A DNA stretch of 64,000 bases from Isoptericola variabilis 225. GTDB lineage: Bacteria; Actinomycetota; Actinomycetes; Actinomycetales; Cellulomonadaceae. How positions within the stretch are numbered: position 1 is the first letter of the stretch; every line of letters begins with the position of its first letter. The notes under the pieces were generated by a model, which was given only the letters and a program-made list of their open reading frames with translations, was not told the DNA's origin and did not search any database. Location of the stretch: NCBI RefSeq assembly GCF_000215105.1, contig NC_015588.1, positions 1,860,001 through 1,924,000 on the forward strand, read 5' to 3'. A program made the translations under genes and the position numbers. This document shows, one piece after another, positions 1,529 to 56,021 of this stretch.

Positions 1529-1533
1529 CAAAG

Positions 1534-2799: not shown

Positions 2800-2810
2800 C
2801 CGCCGTCCCA

Positions 2811-2840: not shown

Positions 2841-2861
2841 GGGCCCGGTCGAGGAGCCGAC

Positions 2862-3800: not shown

Positions 3801-4705
3801 CAGACAGGGTCGCGACGCCCGTAGCGGGCACGGCCCCCGCCGGTCGGCTCGACAAGCTCCCCGCGCCCCAACGCGGTCGACGGCGCAACTACGGTGGGAT
3901 CGCCCTCTGGGTGGCTCTGGTGATCACGAGCCTGCTCTGGTTCCTGCCGTTCTTCATCATGTTCCTCACGTCGGTCAAGTCCAACGCTGACATCAGCGCG
4001 ACCGCACCATGGGCGCTGCCAACCTCGTGGGCGTGGGAGAACTACGCCGAAGCGTTCGAGACGGGACGGCTCGGGACCACTGGCCTCAACAGCCTCGTGA
4101 TCTCGCTCGTGAAGGTTCCGATCGGCCTGATGCTCGCGGCCGCAGCCGCATTCGCGATCGCGCGCCTGCGCTTCCGGGCGCATCGCATCGTCCTCGGCCT
4201 CATCGCCATCGGGTCCATGGTGCCGATCCAGATCGCGCTGGGACCGCTCTTCAGCACGATGCTCCAGCTCGGCGCGCTCGACTCGCTGCCCGGCCTGGTG
4301 CTGCCCTACCTCGCGTTCGGGATCCCCTACGCGGTGTTCGTCCTGTACGGGTTCTTCCGTGCGATCCCCGATGAGATCGAGGAATCCGCACGCATGGACG
4401 GCGCATCGACGTTCCGCATCTTCATCCAGGTGATCCTTCCGCTGGCCAAACCGGCACTGGCAGCGCTGTTCATCCTCGACTTCGTCGGCACCTGGAACGA
4501 GTACGCGATGGCCACCACGCTCCTGCGATCTCAGGAGAACTGGACCGTCCCGCTCGCAGTCCAGAGCTTCTCCACCCAGCACGGCACCGACTACGGCCCG
4601 CTGAACGCATTCATCATCATGTCCGCCGTACCTGTGCTGATCGTCTACCTCATGTTCCAGCGCTACTTCGTCCAGGGAGCCCTCGCAGGCGCGGTAAAGG
4701 GCTGA
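3797..4705 (+). CDS. Sugar ABC transporter permease, MalG/UgpE type
   Basis: A 302-residue partner permease. The GTG start overlaps the previous stop (GTGA) and has AAGGGAGA upstream. Membrane segments begin at IALWVALVITSLLWFLPFFI. The EAA loop is EESARMDGASTFRIFIQVIL (about residues 195-214), and the family's conserved FVGTWNEY segment follows. With the upstream permease it forms the transmembrane channel for the lipoprotein-bound sugar. Confidence 0.9.
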   Translation: MTDRVATPVAGTAPAGRLDKLPAPQRGRRRNYGGIALWVALVITSLLWFLPFFIMFLTSVKSNADISATAPWALPTSWAWENYAEAFETGRLGTTGLNSLVISLVKVPIGLMLAAAAAFAIARLRFRAHRIVLGLIAIGSMVPIQIALGPLFSTMLQLGALDSLPGLVLPYLAFGIPYAVFVLYGFFRAIPDEIEESARMDGASTFRIFIQVILPLAKPALAALFILDFVGTWNEYAMATTLLRSQENWTVPLAVQSFSTQHGTDYGPLNAFIIMSAVPVLIVYLMFQRYFVQGALAGAVKG

Positions 4706-4775
4706 ACCCCGCAGCGACTGCACGCGGATCTCAGCCCAAGAAGACGGCAGACGAGACAAGATCCAAGGAGAAGCA

Positions 4776-4805
4776 ATGGAGCCATCCACGGAGGACCGGG
4801 CATGA
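4776..4805 (+). CDS. Possible 9-residue leader peptide overlapping the kinase start
   Basis: ATG 4776 follows AAGGAG (4765-4770) at normal spacing and opens a 9-codon frame, MEPSTEDRA, whose TGA overlaps the kinase ATG (ATGA, 4802-4805). The kinase has its own GGAGGA inside this small frame. It may be a translational-coupling leader, or the pairing of sites may be coincidence. There is no homology to judge by. Confidence 0.3.
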   Translation: MEPSTEDRA

Positions 4806-6217: not shown

Positions 6218-6276
6218 CAAGCCGTAAGACCACCTGCTAGGTTCTCCTGAGAATCTGAGATCGGAGATGAATCAAT

Positions 6277-7266
6277 ATGTCCCAGCCACGATTCGGCGCC
6301 GGGCTCTGGCACTTCGCCAGCTACGTCGACCGCTACGCCGTCGACGGGTACGCCCCGCCCGTGACCACGCTCGAGGCCATCGCTCGCGCCGGTGAGGTCG
6401 GCGACCTCTCGGTCGTGGACCTGAACTACCCGTTCACGCCCGGTGTCGGGCTCGACGAGGTCAAGGACGCGCTCAAGGAGGCCGGCCTGGCCGCCATCGG
6501 CATCACCCCGGAGATCTACCTGCGCAAGTTCGGCCGTGGCGCGTTCACCAACCCCGACAAGGCGGTGCGGCACGCCACCTATGACCTCATCGACGAGGCC
6601 GCCGGCGTCGTCCGCGAGCTCGGTGCCGACTACGTCAAGGTCTGGCCGGGCCAGGACGGCTGGGACTACCCGTTCCAGGTCAACCACCACGACCTGTGGA
6701 AGCTCGCCGTCGACGGCATCCGGCAGGTCGCCTCGCCGCACCCCGACCTCAAGTTCGCCATCGAGTACAAGCCCCGCGAACCGCGCGTGAAGATGACGTG
6801 GGACTCGGCCGCCCGCTCCATCCTCGGCATCCAGCAGACCGGCCTGGACAACGTCGGCGTCCTGCTCGACTTCGGTCACTCGCTGTACGGGGGCGAATCG
6901 CCTGCCGACGCCGCACAGCTGCTCATCGACCACGGCCTCCTCTACGGCATGGACGTCAACGACAACCTGCGCAGCTGGGACGACGACCTGATGGTCGGCA
7001 CGGTCCACCTGACGGAGATCTTCGAGTTCTTCTACACGCTGCGCATCAACAACTGGGACGGCGTGTGGCAGCTCGACCAGTTCCCCTTCCGCGAAGACAC
7101 CGTCGACACCGCGCGCACGTCCATCCGCTTTCTCAAGGCGCTCCACCGCGCACTGGACGAGCTGGACTACGACGGACTCCGTGAGGCCCAGGAACGGCAG
7201 GACCCCATCGCCGCGCAGCGCCTGGTCCAGGACGCGCTGCTGAGCTGCATGAGGAGCGACAAGTGA
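6277..7266 (+). CDS. Xylose isomerase-like TIM-barrel sugar isomerase
   Basis: A 329-residue single-domain TIM barrel of the AP-endonuclease-2/xylose-isomerase-like superfamily. Likely metal ligands are the glutamate in [11 protein letters not shown], the aspartate and histidine in [12 protein letters not shown], and the aspartates in [20 protein letters not shown]. The last resembles the metal/substrate loop of L-rhamnose isomerase-type enzymes. GGAG lies about 10 nt before the ATG. Its position between kinase and split transketolase points to an aldose-ketose isomerase in the cytoplasm. Known D-apiose isomerases belong to this superfamily, but so do many others, so the substrate is inferred only. 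Confidence 0.75.
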
Positions 7267-8180
7267 CCGTCGAAGAAGACCTCGTACCCACCCTGCAGCC
7301 TGGTGCCCTCAAGGACGTCGCCCTCCCGGTCATCGGACGCACCCCTCCTGGCGCGAGCCGCGAAGACGTCGTCGCACACCTGCGTGAGGCCGCCCGCCTT
7401 GTCCGGGCCCAGGACCTCAAGATGGTCCGCGCTGCGGGCCTCGGCCACATCGGCGGCGAGTTCTCGGTCATCGACATCCTGGTCACCTTGTACCTGCACT
7501 CGATGAACACGACGCCGGACAACCTCGACGACGCCGAACGCGACCGGTTCATCCTGTCCAAGGGCCACGCCGCCGCCGCGCTCTACACCACGCTCGCCGC
7601 GGCCGGCTTCATCCCGGTCGACCAGCTCTCGACCTTCATGCAGCCGGAGTCCGAGCTCAACGGCCACCCCGCCCGCACGAAGCTCGCCGCGGTCGAGGCC
7701 AGCACCGGGCCCCTCGGGCACGGACTGCCCATCGCCGTCGGCACGGCACTGGCCGGCAAGATCGACGGCTCCGCCCGCCGGACCTTCGTCGTCGTCGGCG
7801 ACGGGGAGCTCCAGGAGGGCTCGAACTGGGAGGCCCTCATGACCGCCGGCCACCACCGCATCGGGAACCTCTGCGTCGTCGTCGACCGCAACCGGCTGCA
7901 GCAGGGTGCCCGCGTCGCCGACACCAAGGACCTCGAGCCGCTCGCCGACAAGTTCACGGCGTTCGGGCACCAGGTGCTCGAGGTCGACGGGCACGACCAC
8001 GCCGCGCTCGTCGACGCGTTCGCCTCGGTCCCCGCCGCCTCGGGCAAGCCCACGGTGGTGATCGCCCACACGAACAAGGGCCACCCCATCTCGTTCATGT
8101 CGGACAACGTGGCCTGGCACCACAAGGTGCCCAGCCCCGAGCAGGTCGACGCCGCACTCGCCGAGCTGGAGAACTCATGA
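7263..8180 (+). CDS. Transketolase, N-terminal subunit (split enzyme)
   Basis: A 305-residue protein covering only the thiamine-diphosphate-binding domain of transketolase. It has the N-terminal substrate histidine motif [34 protein letters not shown], and the cofactor/metal motif [14 protein letters not shown]. The last ends in the expected Asn, followed by VVVDRNRLQ. The GTG start overlaps the isomerase stop by 4 bp, and its own stop overlaps the next subunit. It must pair with the product of the next gene, because the pyrimidine-binding domain is missing here. Confidence 0.9.
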
Positions 8181-9127
8181 CCACCACCGCACCCGCAGCG
8201 CTCCATGACTGCCGCGACGCCTACGTCGGTGCTCTCGTGGAGCTCGCCGCAGAGGACGACCGGATCGTCGCGGTCGTCAACGACTCCGTCGGCTCCAGCA
8301 AGCTCGCGCCCTTCGCCGAGAAGTACCCCGAACGCCTGATCAACGTCGGCATCGCCGAGCAGGACATGGTGGGAGTCGCCGCGGGCCTGGCGAACGGGGG
8401 CAAGATTCCGTTCGTCTCGGCCGCGTCGTGCTTCCTGACGGCTCGTGCGATGGAGCAGATCAAGGTCGACGCCGCCTACTCGAACCATCACATGGTCCTG
8501 TGCGGCATGAGCCCGGGCATGGCCTACGGGGAGCTCGGTCCGACGCACCACTCGATCGAGGACCTCGCGTGGCTGCGCACCATCCCTGGCCTGACCGTCG
8601 TCGTCCCGGCGGACCCCGCAGAGACGGCCCAGGCCATCCGCTGGGCGGCCGGCCACGACGGGCCCGTCTTCGTCCGGGTCTCGCGCATGGGAGTCCCCGA
8701 CGTCAACCCCGGCGGCTACGAGTTCACGCCGGGCAAGGCCGTGACGTTGCGGGAGGGCTCGGACGTGACGATCGTGGCCACCGGGACGGTCGTGTCCCGT
8801 GCGCTCGAGGCGGCGGACGTGCTCGGTGAGAACGGTGTCAGCGCTCGGGTGATCTCGATGCCGACGATCAAGCCGCTCGACTCCACGGCGATCCTCGCCG
8901 CCGCGGCCGAGACGCGCGGGATCGTCACGGTCGAGGAGGCGCTCACCAGCGGTCTCGGCGGCGCGGTCGCGGAAGTGGTGGTCCAGCAGCACCCTGTGCC
9001 CGTGCGCTTCGTCGGTGTCCGTGACCAGTTCGCGCCGACCGGTTCGGTGGGATGGCTCCTCGATCATTTCGGGATCAACTCCGAGGGAATCGTCCGAGCC
9101 GCCAAGGATCTGCTCGATCGCGTCTAG
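8177..9127 (+). CDS. Transketolase, C-terminal subunit (split enzyme)
   Basis: A 316-residue protein with the pyrimidine-binding domain and C-terminal domain. The catalytic glutamate is in INVGIAEQDMVGVAAGLA. GMAYGELGPTHHSIEDLAWL and the C-terminal EEALTSGLGGAVAEVV are as in DXS/transketolase C-terminal halves. Start and upstream stop overlap as ATGA. Split transketolases of this size act in dedicated sugar pathways (for example apulose 4-phosphate transketolase AptAB, or sulfofructose transketolase) rather than in the pentose phosphate pathway, which normally uses the single-chain enzyme. Confidence 0.9.
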   Translation: MTTTAPAALHDCRDAYVGALVELAAEDDRIVAVVNDSVGSSKLAPFAEKYPERLINVGIAEQDMVGVAAGLANGGKIPFVSAASCFLTARAMEQIKVDAAYSNHHMVLCGMSPGMAYGELGPTHHSIEDLAWLRTIPGLTVVVPADPAETAQAIRWAAGHDGPVFVRVSRMGVPDVNPGGYEFTPGKAVTLREGSDVTIVATGTVVSRALEAADVLGENGVSARVISMPTIKPLDSTAILAAAAETRGIVTVEEALTSGLGGAVAEVVVQQHPVPVRFVGVRDQFAPTGSVGWLLDHFGINSEGIVRAAKDLLDRV

Positions 9128-9187
9128 CGGGCGCGCCCTACCATTGCATCACCGGTCGATCCCGAATATCTGGCGCAAGGAGCTCCC

Positions 9188-10168
9188 GTGGCGACCAGCC
9201 TGACCTCATCGACGAGCCGCCGACAGGCAGCCGGCGAGCAGATCCGCCTCATGGCCAAGGTCGCGCGCATGTACCACGAGCGCGGGATGCGCCAGGCCGA
9301 GATCGCCGCGGAGCTGCACGTCTCACAGCCGCGCGTATCGCGGCTGCTGAAGCGTGCCACGGAGGTCGGGATCGTACGCACCACGGTCAGCGAACCGGCC
9401 GGAGTCTTCACCGATCTCGAGCAGGAGCTGGAGTCCCGCTACGGGCTCACCGAAGCCGTCGTGGTCGACCCGGGCGGCGACGACGAGCTGCGGGCACTGG
9501 GGAGCGCCGCGGCGCTGCACCTCGAGACGACGCTCATCGGCGGCGACTCGATCGGCATCTCGTCGTGGAGCGCGTCCCTCCTCGCGGCAGTCGAGGCGCT
9601 CCGCCCGTTCAGCTCCCAGGTGGTCACCGACGTCGTCCAACTCGTAGGCGGCGTCGGTGACCCCCGGGTCCAGGTCGACGCCAGCCGCCTGCTCACCCAG
9701 CTGGCGACGGCGACCGGCGCCGAGCCGATCTTCCTGCCCGCCCCCGGACTTCTCGGCAGCCGCCGCGCACGCGAGTCCCTCATGGCCGACTCGACCGTGC
9801 TGCAGGTCAGCTCCCGCTGGCCCAACCTGACGATGGCGATGGTCGGCATCGGCGCCCTCGAACCGTCGCCTCTCCTGCGGCGCTCCGGCAACTCCATCGC
9901 CGAGGAGGACCAGGAGAAGCTCCGCATCGCCGGTGCCGTGGGTGACGTGTGCCTCCGCTTCTTCGACGAGGACGGCGACCTGGTACCCAGCGACCTCGAC
10001 GACCGCGTGATCGGAATCGAGCCCGACGCCCTGCGCGCCATTCCGCGGCGGATCGCCGTCGCCGGCGGTGAGCGGAAGATCGCTGCCATCCGCGGCGCTC
10101 TGCGCGGACGGTGGATCAACGTCCTGGTGACCGACGTCAGAACGGCCCGCGCACTGCTCTCCGAGTAG
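9188..10168 (+). CDS. SorC/DeoR-type sugar-binding transcriptional regulator
   Basis: A 326-residue regulator. The N-terminal helix-turn-helix is YHERGMRQAEIAAELHVSQP followed by RVSRLLKRATEVGIVRTTV (about residues 30-65). The remainder matches the SorC sugar-binding domain: SIGISSWSASLLAAVEALRP as the sugar-phosphate loop, VQLVGGVGDP, and the C-terminal IAVAGGERKIAAIRGALRGRWINVLVTD. GTG start with AAGGAG. It closes the catabolic row and probably responds to a phosphorylated intermediate of the pathway, controlling the promoters at the 5' end of the row. Confidence 0.85.
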   Translation: MATSLTSSTSRRQAAGEQIRLMAKVARMYHERGMRQAEIAAELHVSQPRVSRLLKRATEVGIVRTTVSEPAGVFTDLEQELESRYGLTEAVVVDPGGDDELRALGSAAALHLETTLIGGDSIGISSWSASLLAAVEALRPFSSQVVTDVVQLVGGVGDPRVQVDASRLLTQLATATGAEPIFLPAPGLLGSRRARESLMADSTVLQVSSRWPNLTMAMVGIGALEPSPLLRRSGNSIAEEDQEKLRIAGAVGDVCLRFFDEDGDLVPSDLDDRVIGIEPDALRAIPRRIAVAGGERKIAAIRGALRGRWINVLVTDVRTARALLSE

Positions 10169-11529: not shown

Positions 11530-11901
11530 ATGGCCAGGAAGAACTACTCCGAGGAGTTCCGTCGTCAGGCCGTCGACTTGTACGAGTCCACCCCGGGGGC
11601 CACGGTCCGCGGGATCGCCGAGGACCTGGGCATCGTGCGCGGCACGCTGCGCGGCTGGCTTGAGGTGTACGGGACGGGCAAGAAGACGGCCGCGGACGGG
11701 ACGGTGATCTCCAGCCCGCTGCGCTCCGTGCCGCGAGCGACGAGCCCGTCAGGGCCGCCTGCGGACGAGACGCCGCAGCAAGAGATCGCCCGGCTCGAGG
11801 CGGAGAACACGGCCCTGCGGGCCGAGCGGACGAAGCTGACGACCGAGCGGGAGATCTTGCAGAAGGCGGCCAAGTATTTCGCCGGGGAGACGCGCTGGTG
11901 A
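11530..11901 (+). CDS. IS3-family transposase OrfA
   Basis: A 123-residue DNA-binding subunit: N-terminal helix-turn-helix (YSEEFRRQAVDLYESTPGAT, then VRGIAEDLGIVRGTLRGWL) and a C-terminal leucine-zipper-like helix (IARLEAENTALRAERTKLTT followed by EREILQKAAKYF). This is the standard OrfA layout. Its stop overlaps the start of OrfB (GTGA, 11898-11901). IS3 elements usually also make an OrfAB fusion by frameshifting near this junction. Confidence 0.9.
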   Translation: MARKNYSEEFRRQAVDLYESTPGATVRGIAEDLGIVRGTLRGWLEVYGTGKKTAADGTVISSPLRSVPRATSPSGPPADETPQQEIARLEAENTALRAERTKLTTEREILQKAAKYFAGETRW

Positions 11902-12833
11902 GTCGCTTCCAGTTCGTCGCCGACCATGCCGCCACCTATGCCGATCGCGGCGGGGTGAAGCGACTGTGCGAGCTCGTCGAGGTGACGCGCTCGTCGTACT
12001 ACGCGTGGCAGGCGGGTGCGCCGGCACGGGCCGAGCGGGCCGCCGCCGATGCCGCGCTCACTTCACGGATCGCCGCGATCCACGCCGCGGACAACACCGT
12101 CGGCGCGCCGCGGGTGACCGCCGAGCTCAACGAGGGTGCACCCGCCGGTGAGCGGGTGAACCACAAGCGGGTCGCGCGGGTGATGCGCTCCGCCGGGATC
12201 GCCGGGTACGTCAAGCGGCGCAAGGTGCGCACCACGGTGCCCGAGCTGGCCGACCAGGCCGTGCCGGACCTGCTGGGCCGGGACTTCACCGCCGAGGGGC
12301 CGAACCGTCGCTACGTCGGCGACATCACCTACCTGCCGATCAGCCCCGCCTCGGGCGGCGGGAACCTGTACCTGGCGACCGTGATCGACTGCTACGTGAT
12401 CGACTGCTACTCGCGCCGTCTGGTCGGGTGGGCGGTCGCCGATCACATGCGCACCCAGCTCGTCGCCGACGCCCTGCGCGCGGCCGCCGCCACCCGGGGC
12501 ACGCTGGCCGGGGCGATCTTCCACTCCGACCACGGGTCGGTCTACACCTCGAAGTCCTACGCCGACCTGTGCCGGTCTCTCGATGTCACCCAGTCCAGGG
12601 GAGCCGTGGGCACCAGCGCGGACAACGCCCTCGCGGAGTCGTTCAACGCCACCCTCAAACGCGAGGTCCTACAAGACGCGGCCTGCTGGCCCGACGAGGC
12701 GACCTGCCGCCGCGAGGTCTTCCGCTGGATCCTGCGCTACAACAACCGGCGCCGACACTCCTGGTGCGGCTACGCCAGCCCCATCGACTACGACAAAGCC
12801 ACGACGACCGCTACGCTCGCCCATGCTGCGTAA
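11898..12833 (+). CDS. IS3-family transposase OrfB (DDE integrase) with a 5-residue internal duplication
   Basis: A 311-residue catalytic subunit with HTH_21 region and rve integrase core. The DDE residues lie in YVGDITYLPI (first D), FHSDHGSVYTS (second D) and GTSADNALAESFNATLKREV (E). The usual L-A-T-V-I-D-C-Y-S-R-R sequence is interrupted: VIDCY occurs twice in tandem because 15 bp are exactly duplicated (12381-12410). The insertion falls in the core beta-sheet between the first and second catalytic Asp and may impair activity. Confidence 0.9.
   Translation: MSRFQFVADHAATYADRGGVKRLCELVEVTRSSYYAWQAGAPARAERAAADAALTSRIAAIHAADNTVGAPRVTAELNEGAPAGERVNHKRVARVMRSAGIAGYVKRRKVRTTVPELADQAVPDLLGRDFTAEGPNRRYVGDITYLPISPASGGGNLYLATVIDCYVIDCYSRRLVGWAVADHMRTQLVADALRAAAATRGTLAGAIFHSDHGSVYTSKSYADLCRSLDVTQSRGAVGTSADNALAESFNATLKREVLQDAACWPDEATCRREVFRWILRYNNRRRHSWCGYASPIDYDKATTTATLAHAA
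12381..12410 (+). repeat. Exact 15-bp tandem duplication inside OrfB
   Basis: The unit GTGATCGACTGCTAC occurs at 12381-12395 and again at 12396-12410. It keeps the reading frame and adds Val-Ile-Asp-Cys-Tyr. It looks like replication slippage. Confidence 0.95.
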
Positions 12834-19473: not shown

Positions 19474-19546
19474 GCGGATGTGGCTCAGTTGGTAGAGCAT
19501 CACCTTGCCAAGGTGAGGGTCGCGGGTTCGAGTCCCGTCATCCGCT
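19474..19546 (+). tRNA. tRNA-Gly(GCC), copy 1
   Basis: A 73-nt cloverleaf: acceptor GCGGATG/CATCCGC, D arm with GTTGGTAGAGC, anticodon stem CACCT with loop TGCCA (anticodon GCC), T arm GCGGGTTCGAGTCCCGT. CCA is not encoded. The sequence is identical to copy 2 at 19946. Confidence 0.95.
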
Positions 19547-19604
19547 CGGAGGCCCACTCTCTGATCGTCTCCCCCACGTGGAGCGTAGGGAGAGCACGTC
19601 TCAA

Positions 19605-19675
19605 GGTGGGTTGGCCGAGAGGCGAGGCAGCGGCCTGCAAAGCCGTATACACGGGTTCGAATCCCGTACCCACCT
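19605..19675 (+). tRNA. tRNA-Cys(GCA)
   Basis: A 71-nt cloverleaf: acceptor GGTGGGT/ACCCACC, D arm with CCGAGAGGCGAGG, anticodon loop CTGCAAA (anticodon GCA), T arm ACGGGTTCGAATCCCGT. CCA is not encoded. It lies between tRNA-Gly and tRNA-Val. Confidence 0.95.
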
Positions 19676-19686
19676 CGCAGCACCTT

Positions 19687-19761
19687 GGGCGATTGGCGCA
19701 GCGGTAGCGCGCTTCCCTGACACGGAAGAGGTCACTGGTTCGATCCCAGTATCGCCCACCA
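19687..19761 (+). tRNA. tRNA-Val(GAC), copy 1, with encoded CCA
   Basis: Acceptor GGGCGAT/ATCGCCC, D arm GCGCAGCGGTAGCGC, anticodon stem CTTCC/GGAAG with loop CTGACAC (anticodon GAC), T arm TGGTTCGATCCCA. CCA is encoded at 19759-19761. It is identical to copy 2 at 20070. Confidence 0.95.
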
Positions 19762-19765
19762 GCAC

Positions 19766-19808
19766 GACGACGAAGGCCCCGGACCGTCGGTCCGGGGCCT
19801 TCGTCGTC
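19766..19808 (+). terminator. Terminator of the first tRNA cluster
   Basis: A perfect 20-bp stem (19766-19785 with 19789-19808) has a 3-nt loop GTC. It starts 5 nt after the encoded CCA. Confidence 0.85.
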
Positions 19809-19887
19809 GCCGCGGTTCCCCCCGCGGGCGGCCGGGTCTCGAGGGCGGCGCGGACGCGGCGCAGGGACGCAGGTCACACGGGTGTGA

Positions 19888-19916
19888 TTGGACCTGGATG
19901 CCCCGGTTCGACTACT
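19888..19916 (+). promoter_or_regulatory. Promoter of the second tRNA cluster, TTGGAC-N17-ACTACT
   Basis: TTGGAC at 19888-19893 and ACTACT at 19911-19916, 17 bp apart, lie 29 nt before tRNA-Gly copy 2. It has the same layout as the first cluster's promoter, including GATTGGAC and ACTAxTGTT. Confidence 0.55.
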
Positions 19917-19945
19917 GTTCATCGGGCGCCGGGACACCCGGTCGC

Positions 19946-20018
19946 GCGGATGTGGCTCAGTTGGTAGAGCATCACCTTGCCAAGGTGAGGGTCGCGGGTT
20001 CGAGTCCCGTCATCCGCT
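19946..20018 (+). tRNA. tRNA-Gly(GCC), copy 2
   Basis: All 73 nt are identical to the copy at 19474. The flanking sequences differ apart from the promoter motifs. Confidence 0.95.
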
Positions 20019-20069
20019 CCGAGCTCTGCATTCCTGCCGGAGGACCTCGCGGGGGCGCAGCAGCCGTTT

Positions 20070-20144
20070 GGGCGATTGGCGCAGCGGTAGCGCGCTTCCC
20101 TGACACGGAAGAGGTCACTGGTTCGATCCCAGTATCGCCCACCA
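20070..20144 (+). tRNA. tRNA-Val(GAC), copy 2, with encoded CCA
   Basis: Identical to the copy at 19687, including encoded CCA (20142-20144). In this cluster the tRNA-Cys gene between Gly and Val is absent. Confidence 0.95.
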
Positions 20145-47310: not shown

Positions 47311-48237
47311 ATGACGATGAAGTCGAACCTGGCCGGGCGCGGTCTGCGCACCGCGGCGGCGTCGGCCGCCGGGCTCGCACTGGCCCTCGGGACGGCCGCG
47401 GGCGCCACGGCTGCTCCGGGCGAGTCGGCACGTCCGGACGACGCCGGGCGCTCGGTGCCCGCGAGCAAGATCTCCATCCAGATGTTCAGCCTGATCCCGT
47501 GGGTCCAGCAGGACGGCCTCGACTCCGTTCTCGGCGAGCTGGCGGCGATGGGCTACAGGAACATCGAGCCGTTCAGCGGCAACTTCGCCGGGTACACGGC
47601 CGAGGAGTTCGCGGCCCTGCTCAAGAAGCACGGGCTCAAGGCGTCGGCCTCGCACAACAGCACCAACGAGGCGACCTGGGACCAGACGCTCGACTACGCC
47701 AAGACGATCGGGCAGCACTACGTCGGCTCCGGCGGCTTCGCCTCCCCCGGCATCGGCAGCTACGAGAACACGCTCGCGACGGCCGAGACGCTCAACCGCC
47801 TCGGCGAGGCGGCGTCGAAGCGCGGCCTGCACAAGATCTTCGGCCACAACCACCAGCAGGAGTTCACGACGAAGTACGTCGTGCCGGAGACCGGTGAGCT
47901 CAAGTCGGCGTGGGAGATCATCGCCGACAACACCGACCCGCGGTACGTGACGTTCGAGCTCGACGTCCTGTGGGCCGCGGACGCCGGCGTCGACGTCGTC
48001 GCGCTCCTCGAGGAGTACGGCGACCGCATCGAGCTGCTCCACGTCAAGGACGGCTTCCTCAACGGCGACGCCCGGGCGACCTTCGCGGACGTCGGCGAGG
48101 GCGAGATCGAGTGGGAGCCGATCCTCCAGGCCGCCCACGGAAAGGTCCGGTACTACACCGTCGAGTACGACCTCGCCCCGAACGGGCGGGAGTTCGCGGC
48201 TGACAGCTTCGAGTTCTTGAGCAGCCTCACCTACTGA
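47311..48237 (+). CDS. Exported TIM-barrel sugar isomerase/epimerase-like protein
   Basis: A 308-residue protein. The N-terminus is a signal peptide (basic start, AAASAAGLALALGTAAGATA, cleavage near ATAAPG). The mature part is a xylose-isomerase-like barrel: ISIQMFSLIPWVQQDGLDSV, ELAAMGYRNIEPFSGNFAGY, ELDVLWAADAGVDVVALLEE, ELLHVKDGF and YYTVEYDLAPNG. Glu, Asp, His and Glu residues suitable for metal binding are kept. Sugar-phosphate enzymes are normally cytosolic, so export is notable. Members of this superfamily have been shown to act on 3-keto-glycosides by elimination. ATG 47311 has GAAGGGAA upstream. Confidence 0.8.
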   Translation: MTMKSNLAGRGLRTAAASAAGLALALGTAAGATAAPGESARPDDAGRSVPASKISIQMFSLIPWVQQDGLDSVLGELAAMGYRNIEPFSGNFAGYTAEEFAALLKKHGLKASASHNSTNEATWDQTLDYAKTIGQHYVGSGGFASPGIGSYENTLATAETLNRLGEAASKRGLHKIFGHNHQQEFTTKYVVPETGELKSAWEIIADNTDPRYVTFELDVLWAADAGVDVVALLEEYGDRIELLHVKDGFLNGDARATFADVGEGEIEWEPILQAAHGKVRYYTVEYDLAPNGREFAADSFEFLSSLTY

Positions 48238-48244
48238 TCCCCGC

Positions 48245-48272
48245 GAGGCGGGCCGGTTCCCCGGCCCGCCTC
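48245..48272 (+). terminator. Hairpin after the exported TIM-barrel gene
   Basis: A perfect 12-bp stem (48245-48256 with 48261-48272), loop TTCC, is followed by CACGGCTTT. It lies between two genes of the row and probably lets only part of transcription continue. Confidence 0.65.
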
Positions 48273-48294
48273 ACGGCTTTCCACGAGGAGATCC

Positions 48295-49317
48295 ATGTCT
48301 GGACAACGTGTCGCCGGTGACGCGGCGAAGGGCGGAGTGTCACGACGGTCGGTGCTGACCGGCACCCTCGCAGGTCTGGTCGCGCCGGCCGCCATGTCGA
48401 CGATGACGGCGAGCGCCGCACCGGGCGCACCGGGCGCACCGGGTGCGTCCGGCAGGACGCGGCGCATCACCATGTACGCCGAGTCGCTGCCCGGCGGTCA
48501 GTACGGCTACGGCCTCGCCCCGGGCGAGGCCACCATCCCGGGGCCCGTCCTCGAGATGTGGGAGGGCGAGACCCTCGAGATCGAGCTGGTCAACACCACG
48601 GACCGGCGCCTCTCGATCCACCCGCACGGGGTCAACTACACCGTCGACTCCGACGGCAGCCCGCTGAACGCCTCCTACAACGAGCCGGGCGAGACCCGGA
48701 CGTACGTCTGGAGCACGCAGACGCAGTACCAGGCCGGCAGCGGCCTGTGGATGCCCGGGAGCGCCGGGTACTGGCACTACCACGACCACGCGATGGGCAC
48801 CGACCACGGCACCGAGGGCGTGCGCAAAGGCCTCTACGGTGCGCTCGTGGTCCGCCGCAAGGGCGACGTCCTGCCCGACCGGCAGTTCACCGTCGTGTTC
48901 AACGACATGACGATCAACAACCAGATGGCGCCGAACGCCCCCGTGCTCGAGGCGAACCTGGGCGAGCGCGTGGAGTTCATCGCGATCGGCCACGGCGACA
49001 TGTTCCACACCTTCCACCTGCACGCCCACCGGTGGGCCGACAACCGCACGGGCATGCTCGAGGGCCCCAACGACTCCAGCCAGATCATCGACAACCGGGA
49101 CCTCAACCCGGGCGAGTCGTTCGGCTTCCAGGTGATCGCCGGAGCGGGCGTGGGGCCGGGCGCGTGGATGTACCACTGCCACGTCCAGTTCCACTCCGAC
49201 GCCGGGATGGCGGGCGTGTTCCTCGTGCGCAACGAGGACGGCAGCCTCCCGGACGGCGCCCAGGAGGCGCTCGACCGCTACCGCGACCACCAGCACGGAG
49301 GCCACGCGAACCACTGA
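48295..49317 (+). CDS. Small two-domain multicopper oxidase, Tat-exported
   Basis: A 340-residue oxidase with a twin-arginine signal (GGVSRRSVLTGTLAGLVAPA). Only two cupredoxin domains fit the length, as in the trimeric small laccases of Streptomyces. Copper motifs are all present: LSIHPHGVNY, YWHYHDHAMGTDHGTEGVRK, MFHTFHLHAHRW and the type 1/type 3 motif WMYHCHVQFHSDAGMAG. The C-terminal tail is His-rich (DHQHGGHANH). It oxidises phenols or electron carriers with O2. GAGGAG precedes the ATG. In this row it may regenerate oxidant for the sugar dehydrogenase domain encoded next. Confidence 0.85.
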   Translation: MSGQRVAGDAAKGGVSRRSVLTGTLAGLVAPAAMSTMTASAAPGAPGAPGASGRTRRITMYAESLPGGQYGYGLAPGEATIPGPVLEMWEGETLEIELVNTTDRRLSIHPHGVNYTVDSDGSPLNASYNEPGETRTYVWSTQTQYQAGSGLWMPGSAGYWHYHDHAMGTDHGTEGVRKGLYGALVVRRKGDVLPDRQFTVVFNDMTINNQMAPNAPVLEANLGERVEFIAIGHGDMFHTFHLHAHRWADNRTGMLEGPNDSSQIIDNRDLNPGESFGFQVIAGAGVGPGAWMYHCHVQFHSDAGMAGVFLVRNEDGSLPDGAQEALDRYRDHQHGGHANH

Positions 49318-49387
49318 CCGACGCACCAGACGTCTGTGGCGGGGAACGGCCCCGCGACGACCTTCGATCACGAGCAAAGGAGCAGTG

Positions 49388-52300
49388 ATGGAACGGACAG
49401 GACGAGACCGAGGGCTCCGCGGTGGCACGCCACCGCGGGAGCTCAGACGACGGGCACTCGCCGCGACCGCAGGTGCGGTCCTCGCGGCAGGGCTCGCGGT
49501 GGCACCGGTGGCCGCCGCTCCGGCCGCGGACCCCAGCCCGGAGCCGACGTCGCCGTCGGCCGCGCAGGGCAAGGGACAGTCGGCCGGCACCGACGGGGGG
49601 ACGCGAGCCGCGGCCGCCGCGACGCTGCCCACCGACCTGCGGGTGCTGATCTTCCACGGCGACCCCGCCGCGCAGGTCGACCCCGTCGAGGTCGCCGCCG
49701 ACACGATCGGCGAGATCGCGGGCGAGCACGGCTTCGCGGTCGACGTGACGCACGACCCGGCCGCCTTCACCACCGACAACCTCGCGCAGTACCGCGGCGT
49801 GGTGTTCCTCTCCGCCGAGGGCACCGAGCTCGACGCCGACGCCGAGAACGCCCTGCGGGCGTTCGTCGAGGGCGGCGGAGGATTCCTCGGCGTCCGCGAC
49901 GCCGCCCGGGCGCAGGAGCGTTCGCAGTGGTTCACCGGCCTGATCGGGACCCGGCCCGTCGGCAACCTGCCCGACCCGGCCGACGTCGCGAACGTCACCG
50001 CGAGCGCCAACAACCCGCCCAACGAGACCGAGGCCAACCTGACCGACGGCGACCCGGGCACCAAGTGGCTCGCGTTCGAGCGCACCGCGTGGCTCGAGTA
50101 CGAGATGAGCGAGCCGGTCACGGCGGTCCGGTACGCCCTGACGTCGGCCAACGACTTCGACGGCCGGGACCCGCAGTCCTGGACGCTGCAGGCGTCGACC
50201 GACGGCGAGACGTGGGTGGACCTCGACTCGCGCACGGACGAGGACTTCCCGGACCGGTTCCTCACGCGCGACTTCGCGATCGAGAACGACACCGCGTACA
50301 CGCACTTCCGCCTCGACATCACCGAGAACGCCGGCGAGCCGCTGACGCAGCTCGCGGACTGGGCGATCTACGACGCGTCCGCGTTCGAGGGCGAGGAGCC
50401 CGAGATCCCCGTCCAGGAGGCGACGGTCAACGTCGTCGACCGGCACCACCCGGCCAACGAGGGCCTGCCGGTCAACTGGACCCGGTCGGACCGGTGGCTG
50501 AACTGGAGCCCCAACCCGACGGGCGAGGTCCACACGGTGGCCCAGGTCCAGGAGTGGGACTACGACCCGGGCGAGGGCGCGAACGGCCCCTTCCACCCGG
50601 TCTCGTGGTGCCGTGACTACGACGGCGGGCGCTCGTTCTACACCGGCATGGGAGGCACGGCCGAGAGCTACGGCGAGCCCGAGTTCCGCGACCACCTCGC
50701 GGGCGCGCTCCTGTGGTCCACCGGTGTCGTGCGCGGCGACTGCCAGGCGACGATCGGCGCCAACTACACGATCGAGCGACTGACCGGCACGAACGCGCCG
50801 GGCCAGCTCGACCAGATCGGCGAGCCGCACGGCCTGACGATCGCCGACGACGGCGGCGTCTTCTACATCGGCAAGGCGGCGTGCCCGTCCGGCCCGATCG
50901 TGCCGTGGGAGAACCCCGACGTCGGCCTCGGCTGCGGGACGATCCACCGGTGGGACCCCGAGACGAAGGAGACGTCGCTCCTGACCACCCTCGAGGTCAT
51001 GGGCAACCGCGGCAGCGGCTCGGAGCTCGTCAAGAACGAGGAGGGCCTCATCGGCATCACGCTCGACCCCGACTTCGCCGACAACGGCTGGGTCTACGTC
51101 TTCTGGATGCCGCACGAGTCCATCGACCGCGAGCGCCGCGTCGGTGAGCGGACCGTCTCGCGCTTCACGTACGACGCCGAGGCGAACACGATCGACCAGT
51201 CGACCCGCGTGGACCTCATGGCGTGGGAGACGCAGATCCACTCGTGCTGCCACGCCGGCGGCGGCATGGCGTTCGACGACGAGGGCAACCTCTACATCGG
51301 CTCGGGCGACAACAACTCCTCGGGCGGGTCGAACGGCTACTCGGGCAACAACTGGACCCAGGAGTTCGCCGGGATCTCGTTCCAGGACGCTCGGCGCACG
51401 TCGGGCAACACGAACGACTACAACGGCAAGATCCTGCGGATCCACCCGGAGCCCGACGGCACGTACACGATCCCGGAGGGCAACCTGTTCCCCGAGGGCG
51501 AGTACCCGGCGGACAAGACGAAGCCGGAGATCTACGTCATGGGCGTGCGCAACATCTCGCGCCTGGCCTGGGACTCGAAGAACGACTGGCTCACGGCCGC
51601 GTGGGTCGGGCCGGACGCGTTCAGCCCGGACCCGGAGCTCGGTCCGGCGAAGTACGAGACCGCCACGATCATCACGTCCGCGGGCAACCAGGGCTGGCCG
51701 TACTGCATGGGCGACCGTCAGCCGTACCGCGACCGGTCGAACGAGGACGCGAGCGTCCTGACCGGCTGGTACGACTGCGACAACCTGAAGAACACCTCGC
51801 CCCGCAACACCGGCCTCGTGGACATCCCGCCCGCGCGGGACAACATGATCTGGTACTCCCCCGGTGGCGGCGGACCCGTCTTCCCGCGCGACGAGAACGG
51901 GATCCCGTCGTACGTCGACGACGAGGCCACCTACACGCAGCCGTACCTGCGCGGCGGCGGGCAGGCGATCATGGACGGCCCGACGTACCACCGGTCCGAG
52001 GTCGACACCGAGAGCGGCGTCGCCTGGCCGGAGCACTGGGACAACAAGTGGTTCATCGGCGACCAGTCGAACGCGAACAACCGCGTCGCCGTGACGGTGA
52101 ACCCGGACACGGTCGAGGAGGCCGGCCCGCCGGTCTTCGTCGAGGACCTGCGCAGCATCATCCGCTCGGGCGGCGGCAGCAACGCGCTGCAGAGCTGGAT
52201 GGACGCCAAGTTCGGTCCGGACGGCGCGCTGTACATGCTCGACTACGCGGGCGGCTTCTTCTCGCTGCACCCGAACCAGAAGCTCATCCGCATCACCTAC

Positions 52301-53443
52301 GACGGCGGGCCGGCGACCCCGGCACCGGCCGGGACCGCGACCAGCGTCCAGAGCGACCCGCTCACCGTGGCGTTCACGGGAAGCAGCTCGGGCGGCGTGT
52401 CGTGGCACTGGGACTTCGGGGACGGCACCACGTCCACGGAGCCCGACCCCCGGCACACCTACGCGCGCGTCGGGCAGTACGACGCCTCGCTCACCGTCAC
52501 GTACGCCGACGGTGAGGAGGTCACCGTCGACGTGCCGGTCCGGATCACCTGCACGATCCCGGACGGCCGCGGCACGGTGCACGTCGGCGGCACGGACACC
52601 GGGGTGCCGAACGACGACCTCGGCGGCTGCACGATCAACGACCTGATCAACGACGAGGGCGACTGGGACGGCCACGGCGCGTTCATGGAGCACGTCAACA
52701 CGGTGCTCAACCAGCTCCAGGCCGACGGCGTCATCACCGGCAAGGAGAAGGGCGCGATCACCCGTGCGGCGGCGCGCTCCGACGTCGGCAAGCCGGGCCA
52801 GACCGGCTACCGCTGGCTCTTCGACGGGACGAGCGAGTCCCTCGACGGCTGGCGGCAGGCGCCGGGCGGCAGCTTCGAGCTCACCGCCGACGGGTCGCTG
52901 CGCTCGCAGGGCGGGCTGGGCATGCTCTGGTACGAGGCGGAGGAGTTCGGCGACTTCTCCCTCAAGCTCGAGTACCGGGACGTCTCCGCGGGCGACCACT
53001 TCGCCAACAGCGGCGTGTTCACCCGGTTCCCCGACCCGCGCGTCCCCCAGGACGAGCGGCCCGAGTGCGGGCAGCTCACCGGCTCCGAGGCCTGGGTGGC
53101 GATCTACTGCGGCCACGAGATCCAGATCTACGACGGTCCCGGTGGCGAGCCGCAGAAGACCGGCTCGGTCTACAACTTCGACCCGGTCGGGCTGGGCGAC
53201 GCCGGCGTGACGCCCAAGGGCGAGTGGAACTCCTACGAGATCCGCGTCGTCGGGCAGCACTACGAGATCGTCCGCAACGGCGAGGTGATCAACACCTTCG
53301 ACAACGTGCCGGGGATCTCCTCGTCGCGTGCCGGCGACCCGCCCACGGACCTGCGCCAGTTCCTGAGCGGCTACGTGGGCCTGCAGAACCACGGCAACGC
53401 GGACCTCATCGAGTTCCGCAACATCCGGGTGCAGGAGCTGTAG
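49388..53443 (+). CDS. Giant exported protein: ThuA, discoidin, sugar-dehydrogenase propeller, PKD, unnamed module, DUF1080
   Basis: 1351 residues. A signal peptide (to about residue 46) and low-complexity linker come first. Residues about 80-197 are the first half of a ThuA/amidotransferase-like domain (DLRVLIFHGDPAAQ, GGGGFLGVRDAARA). Residues about 199-343 form an F5/8 type C (discoidin) domain inserted into it (ANLTDGDPGTKWLAFERTAW). ThuA resumes (VDRHHPANEGLPVNWTRSDR, GGRSFYTGMGG) to about 455. Residues 458-971 are a glucose/sorbosone dehydrogenase-type propeller (EEGLIGITLDPDFADNGWVY, GNTNDYNGKILRIHPEPDGT, TSAGNQGWPYCMGDRQPYRD). A PKD domain (WHWDFGDGTTS, 986-1055), an unnamed module (about 1056-1136) and a C-terminal DUF1080/3-keto-disaccharide hydrolase domain (about 1138-1351) follow. 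It would act outside the cell on carbohydrates. Confidence 0.85.
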   Translation: MERTGRDRGLRGGTPPRELRRRALAATAGAVLAAGLAVAPVAAAPAADPSPEPTSPSAAQGKGQSAGTDGGTRAAAAATLPTDLRVLIFHGDPAAQVDPVEVAADTIGEIAGEHGFAVDVTHDPAAFTTDNLAQYRGVVFLSAEGTELDADAENALRAFVEGGGGFLGVRDAARAQERSQWFTGLIGTRPVGNLPDPADVANVTASANNPPNETEANLTDGDPGTKWLAFERTAWLEYEMSEPVTAVRYALTSANDFDGRDPQSWTLQASTDGETWVDLDSRTDEDFPDRFLTRDFAIENDTAYTHFRLDITENAGEPLTQLADWAIYDASAFEGEEPEIPVQEATVNVVDRHHPANEGLPVNWTRSDRWLNWSPNPTGEVHTVAQVQEWDYDPGEGANGPFHPVSWCRDYDGGRSFYTGMGGTAESYGEPEFRDHLAGALLWSTGVVRGDCQATIGANYTIERLTGTNAPGQLDQIGEPHGLTIADDGGVFYIGKAACPSGPIVPWENPDVGLGCGTIHRWDPETKETSLLTTLEVMGNRGSGSELVKNEEGLIGITLDPDFADNGWVYVFWMPHESIDRERRVGERTVSRFTYDAEANTIDQSTRVDLMAWETQIHSCCHAGGGMAFDDEGNLYIGSGDNNSSGGSNGYSGNNWTQEFAGISFQDARRTSGNTNDYNGKILRIHPEPDGTYTIPEGNLFPEGEYPADKTKPEIYVMGVRNISRLAWDSKNDWLTAAWVGPDAFSPDPELGPAKYETATIITSAGNQGWPYCMGDRQPYRDRSNEDASVLTGWYDCDNLKNTSPRNTGLVDIPPARDNMIWYSPGGGGPVFPRDENGIPSYVDDEATYTQPYLRGGGQAIMDGPTYHRSEVDTESGVAWPEHWDNKWFIGDQSNANNRVAVTVNPDTVEEAGPPVFVEDLRSIIRSGGGSNALQSWMDAKFGPDGALYMLDYAGGFFSLHPNQKLIRITYDGGPATPAPAGTATSVQSDPLTVAFTGSSSGGVSWHWDFGDGTTSTEPDPRHTYARVGQYDASLTVTYADGEEVTVDVPVRITCTIPDGRGTVHVGGTDTGVPNDDLGGCTINDLINDEGDWDGHGAFMEHVNTVLNQLQADGVITGKEKGAITRAAARSDVGKPGQTGYRWLFDGTSESLDGWRQAPGGSFELTADGSLRSQGGLGMLWYEAEEFGDFSLKLEYRDVSAGDHFANSGVFTRFPDPRVPQDERPECGQLTGSEAWVAIYCGHEIQIYDGPGGEPQKTGSVYNFDPVGLGDAGVTPKGEWNSYEIRVVGQHYEIVRNGEVINTFDNVPGISSSRAGDPPTDLRQFLSGYVGLQNHGNADLIEFRNIRVQEL

Positions 53444-53501
53444 CCCGCCCGGCACCCCTCACGGACGGTCGAGCCGTCCCCCGCAGACCTGAGAGGTACG
53501 C

Positions 53502-56021
53502 ATGTCTTCCGAGAAGCTCCACCGCCGCCGACCGGGCGGCAGACGTCTGCTCCCCCGCTCCAGCGTCGTCGCCGGCGCCCTGACGGGCGCGCTGGTCCTG
53601 GCCGGGCTCGTGCCCGTCGCGGCGGCCGCGCCGCGGCCCGCGCCCGCGTCCGGGCCGGTGGCCGCCACCACCACGACGACAACCACCACCACCGTGACGA
53701 CCGACACGTCCACCACCGCGGCCGAGCAGAGCGCCGAGCAGGTGCTCACCTGGACGGCGAACAACAGCGTCACGGCGTACGCCTCGGCCCCGGCGACGGC
53801 CGTCGCCGGCCCGGCCACGATCGTCTTCGACAACAGCGTCACGGCGGGCAACACGATCGGCATGAGCCACACGCTGACGTTCGACACGACGACGCCGGGC
53901 TACAACCACGACGTCACGCTCGACATCCTCGCCAACCCGTGGGACACCAACCGCGGGGTGCACGAGGCGCAGGTCGTCCTGACGCCGGGCACGTACCGCT
54001 ACTTCTGCGCCATCCCCGGCCACGGCACGATGGCGGGCGAGCTCGTCGTCACCGACGGCGGCGGCCAGGACGACACGACCGCGCCGACCGTCACCGCCGA
54101 GGTGACGGGCGAGCAGGACGCCGACGGAGCGTACGTGGGGGCAGCGACCGTGACGCTCTCCGCGGCCGACGACTCCTCCGGCGTCGCGTCGATCGAGTAC
54201 GACCTCGACGACGCCGGCTACACCGCCTACACCGCCCCGGTCGCGGTCGACACGCCCGGCGCGCACACGCTGCGGTACCGAGCCACGGACAACGCCGGCA
54301 ACGTCTCGGAGGTCGGGACGGTGACGTTCACCGTCGCCTCGCCCGACCCGGGCGACGTCACCGCACCGACCGTGACCGCGGAGGTCGCGGGCGAGCGCGA
54401 CGACGACGGTGCGTACGTGGGCTCCGCCACCGTGACGCTCTCCGCCACGGACGACGACTCGGGTGTCGCGTCGATCGAGTACGACCTCGACGGCGCGGGC
54501 TACGTCGAGTACACCGGACCGATCGTCATCGACGAGCCGGGCATGCACATGGTGGGCTACCGCGCCACCGACGAGGCGGGCAACACGTCGGAGGCGGGCA
54601 TGGTCCACCTCGTCGTGGTCGAGGAGCCCGTCGAGGACACCACGCCCCCGACCGTGAGCGCCGAGGTCGCCGGCGAGCAGGACGCCGACGGCGCCTACGT
54701 GGGCGCGGCCACCGTCACCCTCGCCGCGACCGACGACCGCTCCGGGGTCGCGAGCATCGAGTACGACCTCGACGGCGCGGGCTTCACCGCGTACACCGGC
54801 GCGGTCGTGGTCGACACCCCGGGGGCGCACACGCTCGCCTACCGGGCGACCGACGGTGCCGGGAACGTGTCGCAGGCCGGGTCGGTGTCGTTCACCGTCG
54901 TGGAGCCGGTCGAGGAGGACACCACGCCGCCCACCGTGGCGGCGCAGGTCACCGGCGACATGGACGGTGACGGTGCGTACGTCGGCTCCGCGACGGTCGT
55001 GCTGACCGCCGAGGACGCCGGCTCGGGCGTCGCGACGGTCGAGTACGAGCTCGACGGCGGCGGCTTCGCCACGTACACCGGCCCGGTGGCCGTCGACGCC
55101 CCGGGGACGCACACCGTGCGGTTCCGCGCGATCGACAACGCGGGGAACGTCTCCGAGCCCGGGTCGGTGACCTTCACCGTCGTCGAGCCGGAGCCCGACG
55201 ACACCACCGCCCCGACCGTCGAGGCCCAGGTCCTGGGCGAGCAGGACGCTCACGGCCGCTACGTCGGGTCGGCCACGGTAGTCCTGTCCGCCGCGGACAC
55301 CGGCTCGGGCGTGGCGACGGTCGAGTACGAGGTCGACGGCGCCGGCTTCGTCGAGTACACCGACCCCGTCGTCCTCGACACGCCGGGCACCTACGCGGTG
55401 CGGTACCGCGCGGTCGACAACGCGGGCAACGTCTCCGTCCCGGCGAGCCTCGGGCTCACGGTCGTGGCGGCTGACGAGGAGCCCGCCGACACGACCGCGC
55501 CGACCGTGTCCGCCGAGGTCGCGGGCGACCTCGGCGACGACGGCGCGTACCTGGGCTCGGCGACGGTGACGATCACCGCGCAGGACGACGGGTCGGGCGT
55601 CGCGTCGATCGAGTACGCGCTCGGCGACGGACCGTTCCAGGAGTACACCGGACCGGTCACCGTGAGCGCGGCGGGCTCGCACGAGCTGCGGTTCCGGGCG
55701 ACCGACGAGGCGGGCAACACCTCCGAGGTCGAGTCCGTCACGTTCCGCGTGGCGCACGACGGGACCGACGCCTGCCCCGCGTCGGACGAGCGTCCGACCG
55801 TCGTGGTCGCCGGGGTCGTCACGACCGTGCCCAACGTCGACACGGGCAACGGCTGCACGATCAACGATCTCGTGGACGAGGACGGCGCCTACGCCAACCA
55901 CGGCGCGTTCGTGGCGCACGTGCGCGAGCTCGCCGACCGGCTGGTCGCCGACGGCCACATCGGCCCGAAGGACCGGCCGCGTCTCGTCAGCGCGGCCGCG
56001 CGGTCCGACGTCGGCCGCTGA
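53502..56021 (+). CDS. Exported cupredoxin with six Ig-like repeats
   Basis: 839 residues. A signal peptide and Thr-rich linker precede a plastocyanin/azurin-like domain (about residues 80-187) with type 1 copper ligands: His in GMSHTLTFDTT, and Cys, His and Met in YFCAIPGHGTMAGELVVTDG. Six tandem OmpL47/Ig-like repeats of 93-96 residues follow (consensus D-T-T-A-P-T-V, GSATVTLSA, SGVASIEYDLDGAGF, YRATDNAGNVSE). The C-terminus is the same unnamed module found in the preceding giant protein (NGCTINDLVDEDGAYANHGA, then AARSDVGR). No sortase or membrane anchor is seen. It may shuttle electrons on a long stalk next to the copper oxidase and sugar dehydrogenase. Confidence 0.85.
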   Translation: MSSEKLHRRRPGGRRLLPRSSVVAGALTGALVLAGLVPVAAAAPRPAPASGPVAATTTTTTTTTVTTDTSTTAAEQSAEQVLTWTANNSVTAYASAPATAVAGPATIVFDNSVTAGNTIGMSHTLTFDTTTPGYNHDVTLDILANPWDTNRGVHEAQVVLTPGTYRYFCAIPGHGTMAGELVVTDGGGQDDTTAPTVTAEVTGEQDADGAYVGAATVTLSAADDSSGVASIEYDLDDAGYTAYTAPVAVDTPGAHTLRYRATDNAGNVSEVGTVTFTVASPDPGDVTAPTVTAEVAGERDDDGAYVGSATVTLSATDDDSGVASIEYDLDGAGYVEYTGPIVIDEPGMHMVGYRATDEAGNTSEAGMVHLVVVEEPVEDTTPPTVSAEVAGEQDADGAYVGAATVTLAATDDRSGVASIEYDLDGAGFTAYTGAVVVDTPGAHTLAYRATDGAGNVSQAGSVSFTVVEPVEEDTTPPTVAAQVTGDMDGDGAYVGSATVVLTAEDAGSGVATVEYELDGGGFATYTGPVAVDAPGTHTVRFRAIDNAGNVSEPGSVTFTVVEPEPDDTTAPTVEAQVLGEQDAHGRYVGSATVVLSAADTGSGVATVEYEVDGAGFVEYTDPVVLDTPGTYAVRYRAVDNAGNVSVPASLGLTVVAADEEPADTTAPTVSAEVAGDLGDDGAYLGSATVTITAQDDGSGVASIEYALGDGPFQEYTGPVTVSAAGSHELRFRATDEAGNTSEVESVTFRVAHDGTDACPASDERPTVVVAGVVTTVPNVDTGNGCTINDLVDEDGAYANHGAFVAHVRELADRLVADGHIGPKDRPRLVSAAARSDVGR
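54072..55767 (+). repeat. Six tandem repeats of about 282 bp (Ig-like domains)
   Basis: Each unit begins with codons for D-x-T-x-P-T-V and ends with x-F-T-V plus an acidic linker. Repeats 1-5 are closest to one another; repeat 6 differs most (ALGDGPFQEYTGPV). The similarity at DNA level makes copy-number change by recombination possible. Confidence 0.85.

Follow-up and report, generated by a model that had tools for sequence, protein, structure and literature searches.

A conserved set of small laccase, giant ThuA-dehydrogenase and stalked cupredoxin genes in Isoptericola and other actinobacteria, and its possible role in extracellular sugar oxidation

The present analysis deals with four neighbouring genes in a 64,000-nucleotide stretch (the window) of the genome of Isoptericola variabilis 225, which is a single contig of 3.3 Mb. 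The four open reading frames (ORFs), A to D, lie on the + strand with intergenic gaps of 57, 67 and 58 bp, and three of the four proteins constitute a conserved unit: B (48295..49317), a two-domain small laccase with a twin-arginine signal motif; C (49385..53443), an exported 1352-aa protein with ThuA, F5/8 type C, GSDH, PKD, CTIND and DUF1080 domains; and D (53502..56021), an exported cupredoxin on six immunoglobulin (Ig)-like repeats with a C-terminal CTIND module. It is very probable that B, C and D form one functional system, and we assign a probability of about 0.4 to the reading that they work together as a complete pathway of extracellular, O2-linked sugar oxidation and cleavage. The original prediction had described four adjacent exported proteins with these architectures, and all four are present, as judged from the ORFs, from N-termini that look signal-peptide-like by eye, and from Pfam, structure and profile matches. 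Its idea of sugar oxidation and cleavage outside the cell stands in outline for B, C and D; it does not hold for A, a TIM barrel protein that is a neighbour of the unit by position.

The linkage was followed at three taxonomic depths. Among 121 genomes of the family (cut-offs E <= 1e-3 for the D cupredoxin, E <= 1e-100 for the C propeller and E <= 1e-60 for B), D occurs in 27 genomes, C in the identical 27, and B in those and in three more; the order and strand of B-C-D are the same in 27/27, with the matched domains 1.3-1.6 kb apart. A protein search of named genomes yielded 80 loci, 14 of which (L023-L036, some being strains of a single species) contain near full-length orthologues of C with 67-79% identity, from Promicromonospora, Phytoactinopolyspora, Georgenia/Oceanitalea, Isoptericola and Micromonospora. 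All 14 carry B together with a relative of D, the cupredoxin being visible in 13 and the remaining locus, L035, ending at a contig border. The closest of the named loci to the window is L036, from a metagenome-assembled genome labelled Isoptericola (identity 89% for A, 87% for B, 78% for C and 94% for a neighbouring aconitase). The set adjoins the aconitase gene in the window, in L036, in L172 and in five Promicromonospora loci, and no aconitase gene was found near it in four other loci tested (L026, L027, L030 and L032); since the set is thus found on the aconitase side in some loci and elsewhere in others, and in at least three gene arrangements, a chance neighbourhood of B, C and D was rejected. 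Mirror-tree correlations between B, GSDH and cupredoxin reach 0.79-0.81 when 27 loci are compared; these values include shared species history and were not counted as evidence.

The third depth is a genus designated g33, in which the same parts are dealt out differently. When 396 genomes from across the phylum were scanned, the D cupredoxin gave seven strong matches besides the window (E 1.3e-49 or better), all of them in g33; the next best match has an E-value of 2.7e-8, and the remainder look like generic cupredoxins. In these seven loci the laccase gene is divergent from a ThuA-GSDH stretch, after which come the cupredoxin, CTIND and DUF1080, and in 8/8 g33 loci tested (the seven and L177) cupredoxin and DUF1080 share one open frame. 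Thus, g33 has a cupredoxin-Ig-DUF1080 fusion on D, whereas DUF1080 is part of C in the window. A further arrangement, D-B-C, is found in the Micromonospora locus L032, where D has an extra CTIND-DUF1080 in the same open frame as the cupredoxin. Two g33 genomes, G742 and G798, encode the long form of C.

A survey of 333 g33 genomes (cut-offs E <= 1e-100 for B, E <= 1e-150 for C and E <= 1e-25 for D) detected B in 205, C in 197 and D in 196; all three are present in 194, none in 125, and a partial set in 14 (B alone in 11, C and D without B in two, C alone in one). In 33 loci chosen by eye among first-contig rows present in all three match lists, the laccase and GSDH genes run in divergent directions, with the cupredoxin 144-183 bp beyond GSDH, in 33/33. 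Fisher's test for B and D in g33 gives p ~1e-75, a number that overstates the evidence because kinship is uncorrected, and the varied gene arrangements are the stronger argument for a unit. The original prediction, which had suggested looking for co-occurrence of the four architectures across Micrococcales, is therefore borne out for B, C and D as a co-localised extracellular set (27/27 family genomes, 14/14 named loci and 194/333 g33 genomes), and not for A, which adjoins the set in 2/27 family genomes and in 1/14 named loci. Micrococcales alone is too narrow a range, because the set is also found in g33, Micromonospora and Phytoactinopolyspora.

The g33 loci also connect the set with a well-studied enzyme. 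The laccase of genome G751 is 100% identical over 341 aa to PDB 3cg8_A, which we take to be SLAC of Streptomyces coelicolor, and for this reason g33 is taken as Streptomyces. Around the G751 laccase (L177) lie a ThuA-GSDH gene and a cupredoxin-Ig-CTIND-DUF1080 gene, and a gene for a LacI-family regulator lies beyond the laccase; a much-studied laccase therefore has conserved partners. SLAC has been named SCO6712 (PMC3918160), and no mention of SCO6711, SCO6713 or SCO6714 was found in the open-access literature.

The following scheme is proposed for the three proteins. C would use its propeller and a quinone cofactor, most likely pyrroloquinoline quinone (PQQ), to oxidise a sugar unit of a glycoside. 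The cupredoxin of D, on its Ig stalk, would take electrons singly from C and hand them to the type 1 copper of laccase B, which would reduce O2 to water. The DUF1080 domain, on C here and on D in g33, would eliminate or hydrate the resulting keto-glycoside, ThuA would probably also act on the keto-sugar, and CTIND may tether DUF1080 or help in the assembly of the parts. A chain from dehydrogenase via cupredoxin and laccase to O2 is suggested because a quinoprotein requires an electron acceptor, because the cupredoxin accompanies C (in 196/197 g33 and 27/27 family genomes), and because a laccase, which takes up single electrons at a type 1 copper, is encoded beside both. In g33 and Micromonospora, where cupredoxin and DUF1080 are fused, the copper step would be tied to the keto-sugar step, and the LacI-type regulator gene adjoining the laccase in L177 also counts in favour of the scheme. 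A precedent is CcSDH, a secreted PQQ enzyme of the GSDH type to which a cytochrome domain is fused (PMC4133262).

The copper sites at both ends of the putative relay are intact. B contains two multicopper-oxidase domains according to Pfam, its best solved relative is the small laccase 3t9w (E 3e-133), and the eight trinuclear-site histidines, the type 1 His/Cys/His/Met and a tyrosine are invariant in 12/12 rows including the window. The ligands are H109, H111, H163, H165, H238, H241, H243, H294, C295, H296, H300 and M305, numbers that presumably differ from those of SLAC by a constant offset of 7. With two cupredoxin domains, closeness to solved small laccases and a complete ligand set, B is assigned by sequence and ligands to the two-domain small laccases.

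In D, the cupredoxin domain (53733..54065) precedes six OmpL47-type Ig repeats. On its own it falls below the Pfam cut-off for Copper-bind (PF00127; 18.6 vs 21.2 bits), as does its relative in the Micromonospora locus L032 (19.2 bits), whereas a g33 orthologue passes (23.3 bits). With a profile built from ten rows of orthologues, auracyanin, rusticyanin and plastocyanin are matched (best E 1.7e-4), and the type 1 ligands His123, Cys169, His174 and Met177 are kept in 27/28 loci in a tblastn check, the domain of the 28th, L035, being lost at the contig end. By profile match and ligands, and not as a member of PF00127, the domain is classed as a cupredoxin.

CTIND, which the original prediction does not mention, is a module of about 80 residues with two cysteines that is common to C, where it lies between PKD and DUF1080 (52541..52789), and to D, where it is C-terminal (55764..56018) and continues into DUF1080 in the Micromonospora and g33 relatives. 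It is predicted to form a beta-hairpin plus a helical hairpin, with a predicted local distance difference test (pLDDT) score mostly above 90. Full-length C and D have no Pfam match in this region, and the module alone gives only a weak match to Abhydrolase_10 (E 0.0065). The same genome also encodes, at L008:8417-10048, a protein that by ORF reading consists of a signal-like segment and CTIND-DUF1080 only, without a dehydrogenase.

The domain architecture of C was read mainly from Pfam matches. The ThuA domain (49637..50716; E 3.6e-57) is matched in two pieces, as it is split by an F5/8 type C insertion at about 49994-50329; this insertion is also seen in the long-form loci L178 and L179, and none was detected in the eight short-form g33 loci examined. 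The ThuA domain is followed by the GSDH-type beta-propeller (50732..52312; E 6e-20), a PKD domain, CTIND and DUF1080. The propeller, a candidate PQQ sugar dehydrogenase, is well above the PF07995 cut-off (72.2 bits vs 25), and a broad propeller profile finds soluble glucose dehydrogenase (sGDH, 1c9u) with an E-value of 3e-21. His623, Arg722-Asn723 and Gly753-Pro754 align with His144, Arg228-Asn229 and Gly247-Pro248 of sGDH and are invariant in 11/11 diverse rows, so that part of a quinoprotein site is preserved. A stand-alone GSDH gene in L010 was inspected and left out of the comparison. The catalytic histidine is directly preceded by a Cys-Cys pair (SCCH, residues 620-623, window positions 51242-51253), and Cys-Cys-His is found in 8/11 of the diverse rows; the pair is reminiscent of alcohol dehydrogenases, in which a vicinal disulfide lies next to PQQ.

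The DUF1080 domain of C (52811..53431; E 1e-34) exceeds the cut-off of Pfam family PF06439 (3keto-disac_hyd), and its model has the same fold as characterised members. The solved structures nearest to the CTIND-DUF1080 model (mean pLDDT 90.6) are DUF1080 proteins; they include the uncharacterised 3h3l, 3s5q and 3imm, and also BT2157 (3osd) and 8tda, 8v31, 8rr2 and 9fbe, which are titled 3-keto-2-hydroxyglucal hydratase or 3-keto-glycoside eliminase/hydratase, and unrelated lectins score lower. The polar motifs E-x-Q-x-x-D, W-N and G-L-Q-N/D-H are kept, the last of them varying in 3imm and 3s5q. The predicted placement of this domain in the 3-keto hydrolase family is thus supported by the position of the model among these structures and by its motifs.

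It should be noted that several observations weigh against the proposed scheme. In the propeller, Leu752 stands at the place of Gln246 of sGDH, and the C-terminal third could not be aligned to sGDH, and with it several PQQ contacts of that enzyme (Lys377, Arg406 and Arg408). The structure model of the propeller is of low quality (mean pLDDT 56), and Hedgehog-interacting protein (HHIP), which is not known as an enzyme, is also among the matches. In the soluble GSDH enzymes that have been characterised, the oxidised carbon is C1, not C3. The distribution of the genes is not perfectly tight either: the set is present in 3/10 genomes of the same genus among those listed, C and D occur without laccase in two g33 genomes, and 11/205 g33 and 3/30 family genomes with the laccase lack C and D, which implies that the laccase can have another use. 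In the three family genomes concerned (L166, L167 and L168), a further observation was made: the gene after the laccase encodes an SBF-like transporter in L166, and a similar ORF lies at the same place in the other two.

The incomplete quinone site and the similarity to HHIP would be expected if the propeller were a non-catalytic binding domain, if D stored copper or served as a chaperone to load the laccase with it, and if the whole set were a surface-anchored laccase scaffold; the presence of a cupredoxin gene near the laccase gene in all loci compared would suit this explanation as well. It appears quite unlikely, because the catalytic His, Arg-Asn and Gly-Pro are unchanged in the 11 diverse rows, because D has a complete type 1 site of the kind typical of electron carriers, and because Bacillus subtilis secreted active small laccases once copper was supplied (PMC10108450). 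A Foldseek search with the low-confidence propeller model, which was not used for the cofactor site, ranked sGDH and related dehydrogenases best, followed by HHIP and AA12 enzymes. PQQ binding with altered contacts is possible in GSDH-type proteins, as exemplified by CcSDH (PMC4133262).

A second explanation retains the dehydrogenase and dispenses with 3-keto chemistry: C would oxidise the anomeric carbon to a lactone, and DUF1080 would be an ordinary glycan hydrolase, with electrons perhaps still reaching D and B. It agrees with the names of solved GSDH relatives, which are glucose or aldose sugar dehydrogenases, and with a single-DUF1080 architecture reported for an endo-xanthanase/lichenase (PMC9007349). 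The predicted DUF1080 structure, however, sits among 3-keto-glycoside hydratases and eliminases, and ThuA, GSDH and DUF1080 are united in another giant protein of the same genome (L006), and we thus consider this explanation rather doubtful.

The laccase might also not be the terminal oxidase at all. C could remove the sugar from a plant phenolic glycoside, B could oxidise the freed phenol, and D could serve C or another acceptor. SLAC does oxidise phenols, namely caffeic and ferulic acid, quercetin and kaempferol (PMC3918160), and flavonoid glucosides are known to undergo 3-keto beta-elimination (PMC10628242). Such a division of labour would leave the conserved cupredoxin without a clear place, and the cupredoxin-DUF1080 fusion links copper redox with the sugar step; it is accordingly judged improbable. 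The reading we prefer remains the chain in which the quinoprotein reduces the cupredoxin, and the cupredoxin in turn the laccase and O2, at the probability given above.

Protein A (47311..48237, 308 aa counted from its ATG) had been predicted as a core part of the pathway that could cleave a 3-keto-glycoside by elimination. The residues of a 3-keto-glycoside beta-eliminase are indeed there: A matches AP_endonuc_2 (E 9.4e-16) and aligns with 8tcd/8tcs, 8bvk and 3obe, and the alignments with 3obe, 8bvk and 8tcd reveal His179, His181, Asp218, His244 and Glu285. By order and motif these correspond to His132, His134, Asp163, His189 and Glu233 of AtOGE (PMC10628242), a correspondence made through the other barrel structures, with AtOGE itself outside the alignment; the AtOGE-type Mn site (His/Asp/His/Glu) and the base His are thus all kept in A. 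Together with its end 57 bp before B, and with its adjacency to B in G072 and L036 as well, this would favour a four-protein pathway in which A acts as 3-keto eliminase of the same operon. The synteny speaks against it. Besides the low counts given above, an A orthologue adjoins the aconitase gene in G103 with no B-C-D there, and in G084 it lies one ORF from the aconitase gene with B-C-D on a different contig; the loci L169 and L170 show this placement of A near the aconitase gene without B-C-D. A was therefore rejected as a core member and is regarded as a neighbour by position, and a four-protein pathway is very improbable. A scan for promoters and terminators between the genes found nothing above shuffled sequences, a result that says little in GC-rich DNA because the scan uses the sigma-70 consensus.

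Related features occur elsewhere in the genome and in the window. The genome contains eight GSDH and four DUF1080 matches over the cut-offs. Besides C, it encodes four giant proteins with ThuA, GSDH, PKD and CBM6 domains (L006, L018, L019 and L020), and AP_endonuc_2 genes lie near the loci L019, L020 and L022. A sugar uptake and utilisation cluster at window positions 358-10168 encodes a solute-binding protein, an ABC permease, an FGGY kinase, an AP_endonuc_2 barrel, a split transketolase pair and a regulator with a sugar-binding domain. Just past it lies an ORF with a transposase-like integrase core (rve, 11898-12833), and five tRNA genes (Gly, Cys, Val, Gly, Val) are clustered at 19474-20144.

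B-C-D is therefore a conserved system of several lineages in which known families are combined in a manner for which no description was found; a search of the open-access literature by title and abstract start for a laccase with ThuA, DUF1080, cupredoxin and sorbosone dehydrogenase gave none among the matches listed (10-30 of 63-2,820 papers), which speaks only weakly for its absence. Much work has gone into the study and engineering of small laccases, the role of the Streptomyces laccase has been called speculated in a review (PMC7036934), and the conserved partners make the electron source of the laccase a testable question. If the proposed scheme is true, it would represent a relay built on copper where other sugar dehydrogenases use cytochromes and flavins, it would place O2-linked keto-sugar chemistry outside Gram-positive cells, and it would supply native redox partners for small-laccase biotechnology.

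Several known systems come close to the set. The lactose pathway of Caulobacter also oxidises sugar extracytoplasmically with LacABC before a DUF1080 enzyme acts (PMC9007349); the present set has a GSDH propeller together with a cupredoxin and a laccase instead, and no LacABC-type dehydrogenase is encoded beside DUF1080, since all Pfam matches of A-D are to other families (a search for LacABC in the rest of the genome was not made). The 3-keto-glycoside hydratases and eliminases (8tda, 8rr2, 9fbe and 8v31) and BT2157 (3osd) share the DUF1080 fold and the conserved motifs, whereas DUF1080 is fused here with a dehydrogenase, PKD and CTIND, or in relatives with a cupredoxin, and the hosts are Gram-positive. 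CcSDH of Coprinopsis cinerea is likewise a secreted GSDH-type PQQ quinoprotein with a one-electron relay, but its relay is a fused cytochrome and not a cupredoxin, and it comes with no laccase, ThuA or DUF1080 (PMC4133262). A cytochrome-fused counterpart of C was sought in the distant loci L038-L102, among which L038 alone has a GSDH match, without CxxCH. The O-glycoside beta-eliminase AtOGE has its His, His, Asp, His and Glu at places matching those of A, which differs in being exported and in standing outside the conserved B-C-D (PMC10628242). SLAC (PDB 3cg8) and its relatives, finally, include B by sequence and ligands and the identical G751 laccase, and differ from the set described here in that the ThuA-GSDH and cupredoxin-DUF1080 partners are not mentioned in the open-access papers found. 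Among the findings, the connection with SLAC is the most useful: it raises the possibility, put forward tentatively, that actinobacterial small laccases, SLAC included, are terminal oxidases of a dedicated extracellular chain, akin to a respiration of sugars, that would lead from a quinoprotein sugar dehydrogenase via a stalked cupredoxin to the laccase and on to O2, coupled to the cleavage of keto-glycosides, with the parts distributed over the proteins in ways that differ among lineages.

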